The position numbers and the translations under genes were made by a program. Shown piece by piece: positions 5,624 to 48,044 of a stretch of 48,145 nucleotides of DNA (position 1 is its first letter; each line of letters opens with the position of its first letter). This DNA is from Bacillota bacterium (GTDB taxonomy: Bacteria; Bacillota; DTU025): NCBI GenBank assembly GCA_019136685.1, contig JAGVTS010000165.1:1-48145 (forward strand). The letters run 5' to 3'. The notes under the pieces were generated by a model. That model had not been told where the DNA came from. It saw only the letters and a program-made list of their open reading frames with translations, and did not search any database.

Positions 5624-6915
5624 CTGCCCTCACCTGCACCGCCCATCTCCTCCAGCTTCACGCTGCGCACTTTCAGGCCGCTTCGGACTATCTTGGCGGA
5701 GACCTCGATCTCCGGCTCCATGTGGGCGAATACCTCGTACCACCTGTCCTTCACTTGCTTCCACACTTTGGGGTTAGTGCGATATACCTCTCTCCCGAAG
5801 CCGAATATGTCGGCTCGGAGTTCCTGAGCCTTGCTGATAGCAGCCATGACCTCGTCCCTGATGGCCTCCTCCAATCGCCGCTCCATGAACGTCCACAGCT
5901 CGGAGTCGCCGTATGAGTCGATGTATGGCTGTACATCCGCGATGTTCGCCTCCGCACTGATCTTCACTACGATCCCGATGTTGCGGCCGTCATCAGTGAT
6001 CTTCGGCTTGAACGCGCCTTTGGCCCTGATGATCTCGAGCCCAATAAGGGACGCCTGGGGATCCGGCTCAATGCTGCGCTGTGTCGCGTCCACCACGAGG
6101 ATTCCCGACGTGACCTTTCCGACCACCCAGTTGTAGCCCCTCGCCTCACGCCCATCCAACCAACCCACGAGCTTATCGCTTCGGAACACTGCAGCGCCTG
6201 AAAGCCTGGCCGCGGCCTTCACCTCTTCGCGGGCAACATCGCCGGTGATCTCGTATGGAGATGTGTACGGGATGACCTCAACACGGAGGGCTATGGGGTC
6301 GATTCCTTCAGAAGCCAGGGCAACTGTGAAATCGTTGATCGAGGCAACCGCAACAGTAGAGAGCCTGCCGGACACATTCGACACTATCCCCCTCCCCGCC
6401 TCGCTCGGAGTCCGCTCCAGCTCGAACTCGGTCTGAAGCAGATCCCACGCTCGTCCATCCTTGACCACGCCAACGAGGGCCCGTCGCCGGGTCTCCTGGT
6501 CGCGTTCCAGCAAGTCAAGTACCCTTGTAACGCCGCCTTTGGCGTATTCCTCGCCAATCAAAAACCATCTGTTATGGGGCCAGCAGAGGATGCGCGGGGA
6601 GACTTCGCTCAGGTTGCGTATGCATTCCAGGAGAGTGCGTCCGGTCGCGCTAACCACCCAGAACGGCCTTTCCTGGGTCTGACTCCGCTCCCCAGCGACT
6701 ATGGCGGAGGGCTTCGTGATCTGGGCCGTGAACTGCATGCGCGGCCTGGGATCGCCATCGACGTCCGGACTATCCCAGTGCGTCGCACCCAGCGACGTGT
6801 CTACCCCAACGGCTACCACAAACCCAAGGGTCTCGATTTCCCTGCGACTCCAGCACCCCGCAGAAACAGAGAGGAAAACCCCGAGGGCTACGATGGCGAC
6901 TGCCCGTCGTGTCAT
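5620..6915 (-). CDS. Spore germination receptor lipoprotein, Ger(x)C family
   Basis: This is the C subunit of a GerA-type nutrient germinant receptor, a lipoprotein on the outer face of the spore inner membrane. The N terminus has a signal segment ending in VSAGC (Cys about 21), followed by WSRREIETLGFVVAVGVD, the conserved Ger(x)C opening. The length of 431 residues is slightly above typical. The ATG at 6915 overlaps the gerB stop (ATGA) and the stop overlaps the next small gene, so translation is probably coupled. The germinant (amino acid or sugar) cannot be read from sequence. Confidence 0.93.
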   Translation of the reverse strand: MTRRAVAIVALGVFLSVSAGCWSRREIETLGFVVAVGVDTSLGATHWDSPDVDGDPRPRMQFTAQITKPSAIVAGERSQTQERPFWVVSATGRTLLECIRNLSEVSPRILCWPHNRWFLIGEEYAKGGVTRVLDLLERDQETRRRALVGVVKDGRAWDLLQTEFELERTPSEAGRGIVSNVSGRLSTVAVASINDFTVALASEGIDPIALRVEVIPYTSPYEITGDVAREEVKAAARLSGAAVFRSDKLVGWLDGREARGYNWVVGKVTSGILVVDATQRSIEPDPQASLIGLEIIRAKGAFKPKITDDGRNIGIVVKISAEANIADVQPYIDSYGDSELWTFMERRLEEAIRDEVMAAISKAQELRADIFGFGREVYRTNPKVWKQVKDRWYEVFAHMEPEIEVSAKIVRSGLKVRSVKLEEMGGAGEGR

Positions 6916-44008: not shown

Positions 44009-44917
44009 CTATTTCGCACTACCTGGGGCAAAATCTGCGAGATTAGCCGCAGCGACCCCTATCGAGGTGTCGGCGGCGCCGTAGTACACGTATGCCACGC
44101 CATCTGCCACCACTTGCCCACAGCTGAATACCACGTTGGGAACCCAGCCCACTCGCTCCCACTCCAGCTCCGGCTCGAGTATAGGCTCGCTCTGTCGGTA
44201 GATGACCTTCGTGGGATCCATCGGGTCGAGGAGAGCCCAGCCCAGTCTGTACGCGTTGGACGGATCTACGCCATGGTAGATCAGAGCCCAGCCGTCCGCT
44301 GTCCTAAATGGCGGCCCCGCGATGCCGATGCGCTCAGATTCCCACGAATCCGACACCGTCTTCATCACGATCGTATGATCCGTCCAGTTCACAAGGTCGT
44401 CGGAGAACGCCATCCATATGTGTGGCCACCTGCGATGGAACATGGCATACCGTCCATTCACCTTGGCTGGAAAGAGCGACGCGTCTTTGTTGGGCTCGTC
44501 CAGCACCACGCCACAGCGCGACCAGTTCACGAGATCTTCTGAGCTTGCCATGGATATTCGATAATCCCCATCGAAACGGGCGCCATAGGCCGTGTACATC
44601 ATGTAGAACGCAGCCTCGCCATCCACCTGCACAATCCGAGGATCCTCCACGCCACGCAGTTCCTGCTGGCCCTCGCCCTGGAATACCGGCGTGTCATGCC
44701 GCACGAAATCCACTCCATCAAGGCTGACCGCGTGGCCCATGCACGATATGTAGTCGCCGAACCTATCGTGGCTAGGCAGGTCGCAAGCGCGATAGATCAG
44801 ATGAAAGACTCCGTCATTGCAGACAGCGGCGCAGTTGAACACTGCCGACCGCTCCCATCCATGTTCCGGCAGGGGGCGCAGAATGGGCCGGCCAGAGAGA
44901 CGCTCGAGTCGCACCAT
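44009..44917 (-). CDS. GH130 family beta-mannoside phosphorylase or hydrolase
   Basis: This 302-residue five-bladed beta-propeller enzyme has the GH130 catalytic motif GVEDPRI (Asp 92) plus NKDASLFPAKVNGRYAMFHR and IYHGVDPSNAYRLGWALLD, all typical. GH130 enzymes split beta-1,4- or beta-1,2-mannosides, mostly with phosphate to give alpha-mannose 1-phosphate, in the cytoplasm. The ATG follows GGAGG at 7 bases. It is the first gene of the long operon running down to 32042. The subfamily (linkage, phosphorylase or hydrolase) cannot be settled by eye. Confidence 0.9.
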   Translation of the reverse strand: MVRLERLSGRPILRPLPEHGWERSAVFNCAAVCNDGVFHLIYRACDLPSHDRFGDYISCMGHAVSLDGVDFVRHDTPVFQGEGQQELRGVEDPRIVQVDGEAAFYMMYTAYGARFDGDYRISMASSEDLVNWSRCGVVLDEPNKDASLFPAKVNGRYAMFHRRWPHIWMAFSDDLVNWTDHTIVMKTVSDSWESERIGIAGPPFRTADGWALIYHGVDPSNAYRLGWALLDPMDPTKVIYRQSEPILEPELEWERVGWVPNVVFSCGQVVADGVAYVYYGAADTSIGVAAANLADFAPGSAK

Positions 44918-44954
44918 TTCCAGACCTCCATCAATGCTATGTTCTTGGTGGGCA

Positions 44955-45037
44955 ATTGCGCAGTGCTGTTTGCGCTGTTTTGCGCTACGTACTTTCTACA
45001 TCGAACCTGGATTTCCTCCTTTCTCGGTTTTTTGCGC
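44955..45037. promoter_or_regulatory. Cluster of TTGCGC repeats before the mannoside operon
   Basis: TTGCGC occurs at 44955-44960, 44969-44974, 44979-44984 and 45032-45037, the middle two exactly 10 bp apart and so on one face of the helix. The same word occurs at 43992-43997 before the LacI gene. They are candidate binding half-sites for the operon's LacI regulator; no clean promoter was identified among them. Confidence 0.4.
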
Positions 45038-45216
45038 ACGCATTGTCGGAGCGGCCCCAGACACCAGCGGAGGCAAGCCGAGAAGTAACGCAGTAATCGA
45101 TAGTAGACGCGACGGCAAGTATCCGAAGAACCATAGCGCGCCTATGCCGACAGCGACATGACGATTCACTACAACCACAGTCGCTGCTGCACTGCCCGGC
45201 CGCTACCGCGTCGCGG

Positions 45217-45245
45217 TTGATCCGAACAGATGTTCGTGGTAGAAT
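45217..45245 (+). promoter_or_regulatory. SOS promoter: LexA box inside a sigma-A promoter
   Basis: TTGATC (45217-45222) and TAGAAT (45240-45245) are 17 bp apart. The spacer begins with CGAACAGATGTTCG (45223-45236), a perfect CGAAC-N4-GTTCG palindrome, which is the Gram-positive LexA (DinR/Cheo) box. LexA bound here would block polymerase. The RNA would start near 45252, ahead of the DNA glycosylase gene. Confidence 0.85.
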
Positions 45246-45315
45246 CTCTGGGAGAAACGGCCCGAGATTGGGCTGTCCGTAATGTCCGGTCATGTTGCGG
45301 GAAAGGCGTGTGTAC

Positions 45316-46545
45316 TTGAAAATGGGAAGATTGCGTCTCACGAAAAGCCAGGCCCGCCAGTTCATTCTGGCCCATCAGGGGCTGTGGCCTCCGCGTTGCA
45401 TGGCGGGCAAACGCGGTGTGCTTCAGCACATCGACCGCGTCGGCTGCATTCAGTTCGATCCTCTGGACATTGTGGGCCACAACTCGGAATTGGTGCTTCA
45501 AGCACGCATTTTGGGTTTCCGTCGTGCAATGCTGCGGGAATTGCTGTATGACAAACGGCAGCTCATAGATGGTTACGACAAGATGATGTCGATCTACTCT
45601 GTCAACGACTGGCCTCACTTCCGCCGCGATCGGGAATCAGCCGCGCGCAGCTTGGCCGATGGCGCGGAGCCGATCAGGTCTATCCTTCCACAGGTCCGCA
45701 AGGACATAATGGACCGCGGTCCCCTATCTTCAATCGATCTTGACTACAATGATCGCGTGCGATGGCCATGGGGCCCTGCACGTCTATCGCGGGCTGCACT
45801 GGAGAGCATGTACTTCTGCGGAGAACTGGTAGTGCATCACAGGGTACATACGCGCAGGGTGTACGACCTCGCGGTCCGCCATCTCCCGCAGGATCTTCTC
45901 TCGGCGCCCGACCCGAACGTAGACGAAGAAGAGTATCGCGACTGGCGTGTGCTGCGGCGCATCGGAGGAATCGGCTTGCTATGGGAAAGGTCAAGCGATG
46001 CCTGGCTGGGCATACCTGGGGTGCGATCCAAGGAGCGGCGGGAATCGCTTGAGCGGCTGCTCACGCAGGGGAAGGTCACTCGGGTTAGCGTGGACGGTGT
46101 TGCTCCTGCGCTTTACTTAAGGACCGACGACGAGAGTACCCTCTACTCCACGCTCAGCGACAGGACCCAGGCACCGCGTGCAGCAATACTCGCGCCTCTT
46201 GACAATCTCCTCTGGGATCGAAAGCTTGTCGCCGAGCTATTCGACTTTGACTACCGCTGGGAAGTGTACAAACCGGCCCCGCTGCGAGACTATGGCTACT
46301 ACGTGCTCCCTATCCTGTATGGAGACAGATTCGTGGCGCGGTTTGAGCCGGGGCGCGACAAGGCGAGCGGCGCAGTGGTAGTGCGGAACTGGTGGTGGGA
46401 ATCGGGAATCACCCTCTCGGACGAGATGCGTGTTGCCCTGATAGACTGCTTTAGGGAATTCCTAGCTTATCTTGAGGCCAACAGTCTCATAATCGACAGT
46501 CAGGCAGCGAAACGGGCGGACCTGGGTTGGCTCCGGCCGGACTAA
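45316..46545 (+). CDS. YcaQ-type winged-helix DNA glycosylase (HTH_42 family)
   Basis: The protein of about 409 residues belongs to the YcaQ/AlkX family of winged-helix DNA glycosylases, which unhook interstrand crosslinks and remove bulky alkylated bases. The catalytic Gln-x-Asp motif is present in the CIQFDPLD segment (about residues 46-48). The conserved LLWDRK and FDFDYRWEVYKPA segments near the C-terminal third are typical (about 310-335). The start is uncertain: TTG 45316 has AAAGG at fair spacing, ATG 45322 and ATG 45292 are alternatives. Its promoter carries a LexA box, so it is probably induced by DNA damage, which fits a crosslink-repair role. Confidence 0.9.
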   Translation: MKMGRLRLTKSQARQFILAHQGLWPPRCMAGKRGVLQHIDRVGCIQFDPLDIVGHNSELVLQARILGFRRAMLRELLYDKRQLIDGYDKMMSIYSVNDWPHFRRDRESAARSLADGAEPIRSILPQVRKDIMDRGPLSSIDLDYNDRVRWPWGPARLSRAALESMYFCGELVVHHRVHTRRVYDLAVRHLPQDLLSAPDPNVDEEEYRDWRVLRRIGGIGLLWERSSDAWLGIPGVRSKERRESLERLLTQGKVTRVSVDGVAPALYLRTDDESTLYSTLSDRTQAPRAAILAPLDNLLWDRKLVAELFDFDYRWEVYKPAPLRDYGYYVLPILYGDRFVARFEPGRDKASGAVVVRNWWWESGITLSDEMRVALIDCFREFLAYLEANSLIIDSQAAKRADLGWLRPD

Positions 46546-46549
46546 GCAA

Positions 46550-46577
46550 GTGCCCCCCAGCGAGGGCCGGGGGGCAC
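46550..46577. terminator. Hairpin between convergent genes
   Basis: A perfect 9-bp stem, GTGCCCCCC (46550-46558) and GGGGGGCAC (46569-46577), with a 10-base loop lies between the glycosylase stop (46545) and the stop of the convergent small exported protein (46603). There is no T-run on either side, so it may be a shared 3' hairpin rather than a classical terminator. It resembles the hairpin at 86-113. Confidence 0.6.
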
Positions 46578-46602
46578 CCAGAACCAGCGTGCAATCTCAC
46601 AT

Positions 46603-47076
46603 CTACAGGCCCACGTAAAAGTACAGATCGTACATTTCCTGGTAGTCGTAGAGGACGATGATGCGATACCATCCGTCACGCCATCCGCCTGTAGAAAGAT
46701 CGAAATTTGACTCGCCGGGCTCGAGGAAAACCCAGCCGGCATCTGATTCGGAACCCTGCATCTCGAAATCCCACGTGTCCGAGGCGGCATCCTCAGAGTC
46801 GAGGTGCGTGACCTTGACGAACAGCGGAGCGCCCTCATAGATCCCAAATGTGTTCATCCATAGCGCTATGTAGGGCACTCCCGAGAAGAACGTTCGCGTG
46901 ATGTCGATGGGCTGACCTGTGTCCTCGTCAACGTCCTCAGCTGTGACGATGTTTCCGATAGCGGGGATGAACAAGCCCACGTCAGACTGGTCAACAGCAG
47001 CACGCGCTAGCCCCGGGAATATTGCAAGGACCAAGGTCATCGTCAGCAATAGCGCAACAGCTGATCTCTTCCTCAT
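46603..47076 (-). CDS. Small exported protein of unknown function
   Basis: The 157-residue product starts at ATG 47076, six bases after GGGGAG; the frame to 47094 lacks a ribosome site. A signal peptide runs to about residue 26 with cleavage near ARA-AVDQ. The mature part is acidic and rich in Asp and Tyr, with a likely beta-sandwich pattern (WDFEMQGSESDAGWVFLEPGE and GWYRIIVLYDYQEMYDLYFYV). No family was recognised. It follows purC by 53 bp on the same strand and may be co-transcribed. Confidence 0.75.
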   Translation of the reverse strand: MRKRSAVALLLTMTLVLAIFPGLARAAVDQSDVGLFIPAIGNIVTAEDVDEDTGQPIDITRTFFSGVPYIALWMNTFGIYEGAPLFVKVTHLDSEDAASDTWDFEMQGSESDAGWVFLEPGESNFDLSTGGWRDGWYRIIVLYDYQEMYDLYFYVGL

Positions 47077-47129
47077 TGGGATCTCCCCTTTCAACCTGAG
47101 AGTTGAGGCAGATAGGACGGTGGAGGTGT

Positions 47130-47807
47130 CTATGCCTGACCGAGAAGGGCCTCAGCCAACTCGGTCTGCAACATGATTCGCCCGTGGCGGGCGACCCGCA
47201 TACTGTCGCCGGACACTTCGTCAATGATCATGGTTCGGCCGTCGACCTCGCCAAATTCGTACTTGATGTCGATCAGCTCCAGCCCCTGCTCGTTCAAATG
47301 CCCCGCAATCAGCGATGTCGCCCGGCGCGCTGTGGCTTTCATGTAGTCGATGGCCTCTCTGGACACGATATTCAAAGCGACCAGGGCATCCTCTGTAATC
47401 AGGGGGTCGCCCCGCTCATCGTCCTTCAGCGTGAACTCAACCAGCGATTGAAGAGGGTCGCCTTCACGGACGTAGCCGCCGTAACGACGCACGAAGCTGC
47501 CCCAGGCTTTCACACGACAGATTACCTCAAGCTTAAAGGAGCGTGCCAGCCTGGCGATGATTGTGTTTGTGTCGGGCCCGGCGCCGACGAAGTGTGTGGG
47601 TATTCCGGCTTCATGCAGAAGCTCGAAGAAACGCAACGTCAGCCTGAAAGAGGAGCGCCCCTTCCCAGCGACTTCTCCTATTACCTCATTGGCGCCGGAA
47701 TCAATCCTATCGCCCACGCCTGTTACCGCGTCTTTGAAACGAAGCAAAACGTTGCCGTCATCTCGCAGGAATACGTCTTTCGTCTTCCCCGCGTATATCT
47801 TGTGCAT
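47130..47807 (-). CDS. purC: Phosphoribosylaminoimidazole-succinocarboxamide synthase
   Basis: PurC joins CAIR and aspartate using ATP in purine biosynthesis, in the cytoplasm. The N-terminal glycine loop AGKTKDVF (about residues 6-13), VTGVGDRIDSGA, and the C-terminal DIKYEFGEVDGRTMIIDEVSGD motif are diagnostic. The length of 225 residues is normal. The ATG at 47807 follows AGGAGG by 7 bases; the TTG at 47813 is too close to that site. A TAGAAT at about 47890 may be the -10 box. It stands apart from other purine genes. Confidence 0.94.
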   Translation of the reverse strand: MHKIYAGKTKDVFLRDDGNVLLRFKDAVTGVGDRIDSGANEVIGEVAGKGRSSFRLTLRFFELLHEAGIPTHFVGAGPDTNTIIARLARSFKLEVICRVKAWGSFVRRYGGYVREGDPLQSLVEFTLKDDERGDPLITEDALVALNIVSREAIDYMKATARRATSLIAGHLNEQGLELIDIKYEFGEVDGRTMIIDEVSGDSMRVARHGRIMLQTELAEALLGQA

Positions 47808-48044
47808 GGTCAATCCTCCTGATGCAGTGCGAAGTCTGTGTACAGTGCTCCCACGCGATCCTCAGTTGATGCAACATCCTGATAGCTAATTCTACACTGC
47901 CGGGCCGAATGTTGCCATCCGGACCTGCCGAATCGGCCACTGTTTTCTCGGGCATCAACCGCCGGCCGCCGCATATGGTGCCCTATGAGTGCGTTCAGTA
48001 CTCTACCTAGGATCCCTGAGTCTTGAGGAAGGGAAGTGCTCACC

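Follow-up and report, generated by a model that had tools for sequence, protein, structure and literature searches.

It is very probable that the gene alkX, located in the 48,145-nt stretch of DNA analysed here (the window), codes for a DNA glycosylase of the AlkX/YcaQ-like kind and is part of its host's LexA regulon. The initial annotation had proposed that this gene is under direct LexA control, and the proposal is strongly supported by the predicted operator, its position in the promoter, its conservation and the motif apparently used by the organism's own LexA. Binding of LexA to the site and induction of alkX by DNA damage are what we infer from these sequence features. The predicted operator is a perfect palindrome, the sole exact match to the palindrome in the window, and it does occupy, as first described, most of the 17-nt spacer of a TTGATC / TAGAAT promoter (Table 1). 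A search for sigma-70-like sites in 44900-46700 found this one promoter, 0.9 being expected by chance. The source genome (G000) is a draft of 2.89 Mb in 254 contigs.

Table 1 Features of the alkX locus in window coordinates.
Feature	Position	Strand	Remarks
-35-like hexamer TTGATC	45217-45222	+	From promoter scan; aligned with TTGACC in G007 and G002
LexA (SOS) box CGAACAGATGTTCG (predicted)	45223-45236	strand-symmetric	Perfect palindrome; fills most of the promoter spacer
-10-like hexamer TAGAAT	45240-45245	+	TG just 5' of the hexamer
Probable ribosome-binding site GGAAAGG	45300-45306	+	Conserved in G007 and G002
alkX/ycaQ-type DNA glycosylase gene (AlkZ-like, PF06224)	45316-46545	+	Catalytic QFD motif
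GC-rich inverted repeat GTGCCCCCCAGC ... GGGGGGCACC	46551-46580		Just past the stop codon; read directly

The open reading frame ends at 46545 and the gene is intact. The most likely start is TTG at 45316 or ATG at 45322 rather than the first ATG of the frame (45292), because these two codons lie behind the GGAAAGG sequence that is conserved in the same-genus and same-family comparison. The inverted repeat past the stop codon is a possible transcription end; it has no T run and was not listed by the terminator scan. The next gene downstream (46603-47094) is on the opposite strand, which suggests that alkX stands alone, and the gene looks monocistronic. Further downstream, 47130-47813 on the minus strand encodes a SAICAR synthetase-like protein of 227 aa, which scored 114 bits against the NCBIfam purC cut-off of 190 bits, and the same-genus genome G007 has a similar gene downstream of its alkX too. 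Upstream of alkX, the minus-strand gene at 44009-44917 encodes a beta-1,2-mannobiose phosphorylase (NCBIfam equivalog, above cut-off). It adjoins genes for a LacI-type regulator and a probable sugar-transport permease, and the region is perhaps a cluster for beta-mannoside use.

The alkX product matched one Pfam family, AlkZ-like PF06224, scoring 181 bits (cut-off 25.9) over profile positions 1-315 of 329; alkX is the only PF06224 gene in the genome. None of the NCBIfam models matched the alkX product. In the PDB, the best fold match of the AlphaFold2 model (pLDDT 93.5, pTM 0.91) is 9zd6, an AlkX/YcaQ protein bound to DNA (E 8e-26, TM 0.76), followed by AlkZ 5uuj (E 1.4e-10). By sequence, too, the PDB contains one match, the 9zd6 protein, which we take to be probably the one from Thermobifida fusca treated in PMC13303869. 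All 30 sequences of a clade alignment have Gln44 and Asp46, and the Q-F-D motif of the window's protein aligns with the Q-I-D motif of both 9zd6 AlkX and E. coli YcaQ. In the phylogenetic tree, which includes only two YQL references, has long branches and has an uncertain root, E. coli YcaQ and 9zd6 AlkX are on their own branch (SH-aLRT 95), separate from the clade of the window's protein (97). These observations identify the protein as a member of the AlkZ-like family that is AlkX-like by modelled fold and motif and appears to fall in a separate clade. The original designation as a YcaQ-type gene agrees with the Gln and Asp of the motif and with the AlkX-like modelled fold, and in this tree the clade appears to be apart from that of E. 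coli YcaQ and 9zd6 AlkX.

The fold and the catalytic residues suggest that the enzyme unhooks DNA crosslinks. It is also conceivable that LexA control is real and that the enzyme is not a crosslink unhooker: as a member of a sister clade of YcaQ/AlkX, it might act only on alkyl monoadducts, or on another lesion. Besides the separation of the two branches in the tree, this reading is favored by the identity to the closest characterised enzymes, which is only about 27%, and by the residue between Gln and Asp: the window's protein has Phe at this position, and most clade members have Phe or Tyr, where the definition of the YQL subfamily asks for an aliphatic residue (Gln-x-Asp with x aliphatic, PMC9040887). 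We nevertheless consider it unlikely, with a probability that is far from negligible, as the clade keeps the catalytic Gln and Asp without exception and the fold best matches an AlkX-DNA complex. No report of a tested substrate for this clade was found in the literature searched.

Regarding the regulator, just one protein of the genome has a LexA DNA-binding domain. Read against LexA proteins in general, its sequence shows an intact DNA-binding helix-turn-helix, an Ala-Gly site for self-cleavage, and the regions with the Ser and the Lys. The single lexA gene is divergent from a yneA-like LysM-domain gene, and four boxes of the same type as the alkX box are located between them (CGAACGCGTGTTTG, CGAACAACCGTTCG, AGAACATATGTTCC and CAAACATGTGTTCT). 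Similar boxes are found 5' of lexA in five other family members. In the source genome, GAACATATGTTC is located at the promoter of a divergent Y-family polymerase-like gene (L140, contig C63, 5176), whose product has an IMS domain and a weak C-terminal match. The boxes at the lexA and Y-family polymerase promoters point to the classic Gram-positive GAAC-N4-GTTC as the operator in this organism, which is also given as the LexA consensus of B. subtilis (PMC4234289). The initial annotation had asked whether LexA of this organism might use another motif, and the lexA promoter gave the same one. Its comparison with the SOS promoters of Bacillus is right for the operator, which is that of the B. subtilis consensus; the host itself is no Bacillus, but an uncultured bacterium within Bacillota.

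A shared operator would also allow a different repressor, such as a LexA-like protein from a mobile element or an XRE regulator, to bind the alkX box, and phage LexA-like regulators can indeed use this kind of box; one study reportedly deals with a phage-encoded LexA homologue. We regard this as very improbable here, given that the genome has a single LexA DNA-binding domain and that the lexA promoter itself bears the motif. LexA as the predicted repressor does not imply a textbook SOS regulon, because recA (L018, contig C3, 32989) has no LexA box within about 380 nt upstream. The recA gene closely follows another gene, and recA itself may be outside SOS control in this organism.

Boxes were also observed at other loci of the source genome. 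Contig C176 encodes a second, typical Y-family polymerase; close to it, a tandem box (6156-6180) precedes a DUF72 gene. On contig C214 (L153, about 82328), GAACAGATGTTC lies just 5' of a small gene pair, after a TATGAT-like promoter sequence. Read by eye, the pair encodes a short probable antitoxin and a PIN-like (VapC-type) protein, and it is a possible SOS-controlled toxin-antitoxin pair. On contig C205 (L009, 12172-12215), two LexA boxes are found 5' of a small gene whose product weakly matches an RNase H-like family (RVT_3), CGAACATATGTTCG inside TTGACA...TTATTG and GAACACTTGTTC 31 nt further; this small gene is a candidate SOS gene.

A search for the box before orthologues had been suggested as a check at the outset, and the box was found in the family and more widely. 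Within the family, all four alkX orthologues have the box in spite of differing upstream genes, those at 77, 62 and 51% identity bearing CGAACAGGCGTTCT, AGAACATATGTTCT and CGAACACATGTTCG, respectively. In a four-way alignment, the box, the TG and the -10 hexamer are in register in all four and the invariant columns cluster there, while much of the remaining promoter has diverged.

Beyond the family, a first set combined homologues from a scan of named genomes with those from 398 Bacillota genomes (65 with the family), resulting in 79 non-redundant genes. An exact GAAC-N4-GTTC was present within 250 nt upstream of 14 of the 79 genes, compared with 0.2 expected from Markov shuffles, and the reversed control pattern was present in 0/79. 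In 12 genes (9 exact and 3 near-exact), the box is located between the -35 and the -10 in nearly the same register, the -35 being weak in G006. In Paenibacillus humicus, P. herberti and P. pasadenensis, the box is located directly after the -10 instead. Both layouts suit a repressor. A second set was collected from Paenibacillaceae, in which 207 of 400 genomes have a homologue, and 90 upstream regions were analysed, drawn from the higher-scoring homologues. Within 300 nt upstream, 44 of the 90 have an exact box, 11 have a near box and 35 have none, while 0.3 exact boxes were expected and the control gave 0; this set is non-random, shares descent (many close species of one genus) and partly overlaps the first, and the ratio is not a census. 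The excess of boxes in this set is not in doubt.

On the homologue tree, genes with an exact or near box are clustered, and 9 changes are needed to account for their distribution. Two homologues with near-boxes (L068 and L087) are located outside the alkX clade of the window, which suggests that LexA control of this glycosylase family may have arisen more than once. The upstream regions fetched for homologues from Dehalococcoidales and other Chloroflexota, Spirochaetes and Synergistaceae contain no box. With the Chloroflexota homologues and 35 of the 90 Paenibacillaceae genes lacking it, the predicted LexA control appears patchy. The initial annotation had placed this control in the lineage of the window; the box is present there, and the predicted control is more widespread, recurring in Bacillota including Paenibacillus.

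We note that the bare palindrome is not rare in the genome. The exact palindrome occurs 10 times genome-wide versus 6 times for the reversed control pattern, and the shorter GAAC-N4-GTTC occurs 62 times versus 75 for the control; many copies of the palindrome fall within genes. We dropped this genome-wide count as proof of LexA control as the enrichment is not clear, and the case for LexA control rests on other evidence. The alkX box stands out by its position in the promoter and its conservation before orthologues, both far beyond chance. These counts, and the fact that the window had been scanned looking for such features, are the grounds on which one could see the palindrome in the spacer as a coincidence with no regulatory role. 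Box conservation already contradicts such a coincidence, which we hold to be highly unlikely: the box keeps its register before the orthologues of the family and in several further families of Bacillota, and the exact boxes in both wider sets far outnumber those expected, with no control pattern in either. Finally, as the palindrome has no orientation of its own and lies between divergently transcribed genes, a true LexA site could be thought to serve the upstream beta-1,2-mannobiose phosphorylase gene, a barely credible reading that we rejected on position and conservation, as the box lies more than 300 nt from that gene and within a plus-strand promoter, and as the upstream sequence differs in G002 and G006 while the box is still present, which indicates that the box goes with alkX.

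Direct repression of alkX by LexA would work as follows. In an undamaged cell, a LexA dimer on CGAACAGATGTTCG, between the -35 and the -10, would bar RNA polymerase from the promoter. DNA damage would activate RecA, LexA would cleave itself, and the alkX promoter would open. The enzyme would then cut the N-glycosidic bond of alkylated or crosslinked guanines, by which interstrand crosslinks would be unhooked and abasic sites would be left for base-excision repair. If this is true, unhooking by a damage-induced glycosylase would give these bacteria an inducible route of crosslink repair in addition to UvrABC, and glycosylase unhooking would be placed within the inducible damage response. Across Bacillota, we think it likely that a distinct AlkX-like clade regularly belongs to the SOS regulon, which has so far gone unrecognised, and that the box was gained or lost repeatedly and occurs in two promoter layouts. 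For Bacillota including the named Paenibacillus species, a concrete mechanism is thereby predicted, namely direct LexA repression of alkX.

In the open-licence literature that we searched, we found no report of LexA control of the AlkZ-like/YcaQ/COG3214 family, and an earlier report elsewhere is possible. The one published SOS test of a YcaQ gene found in this literature is in E. coli, and it is negative: in RT-qPCR, ycaQ was not induced by mechlorethamine or MMS, while lexA and uvrA were induced by mechlorethamine in the same study (PMC7367128). PF06224 had no match in B. subtilis in a control search; as this species serves as the standard SOS model of the phylum, the lack of a match may explain why LexA control of the family was missed. 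Our search for literature on the Paenibacillus SOS regulon returned nothing useful, a LexA paper on S. venezuelae does not mention glycosylases, and neither does an in silico study of the regulon of C. difficile. A transcriptome paper on M. smegmatis names ycaQ in passing only. In Myxococcus, MXAN_6210, annotated as 'winged helix DNA-binding domain-containing', is described in the literature as raised by mitomycin C, and its product might belong to the AlkZ-like glycosylase family.

Several known systems can be compared with the alkX locus. The LexA/SOS regulon of Bacillus and Clostridium has the same GAAC-N4-GTTC operator and the same lexA-yneA arrangement, but an AlkZ-like glycosylase is not found in the regulon literature examined. 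Acinetobacter baumannii is not known to have a canonical LexA, and induction of alkX there must work otherwise. Mechlorethamine, a crosslinking agent, induces its alkX gene, which parallels the damage response predicted for ours, and acid stress induces it as well (Kunkle 2024, as cited in PMC13303869); the authors of the citing paper propose species-specific regulation of AlkX, the mechanism not being named in the passages concerned (PMC13303869). AlkZ of Streptomyces sahachiroi (5uuj) and the AZL self-resistance glycosylases share the superfamily fold. They have a QxQ or HxQ motif and are encoded in or near antibiotic gene clusters (PMC9040887), whereas the protein described here has QxD and the examined neighbours of its gene are not of the antibiotic-cluster type. 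The 9zd6 AlkX is the best match in fold and appears to belong to a different clade. E. coli YcaQ, a glycosylase acting on interstrand crosslinks (PMC7367128), is in the same Pfam family and is collinear with the window's protein over 380 residues, with 27% identity and the QxD motif; the E. coli gene follows msbA-lpxK and is constitutive, whereas alkX appears to stand alone under a LexA box.
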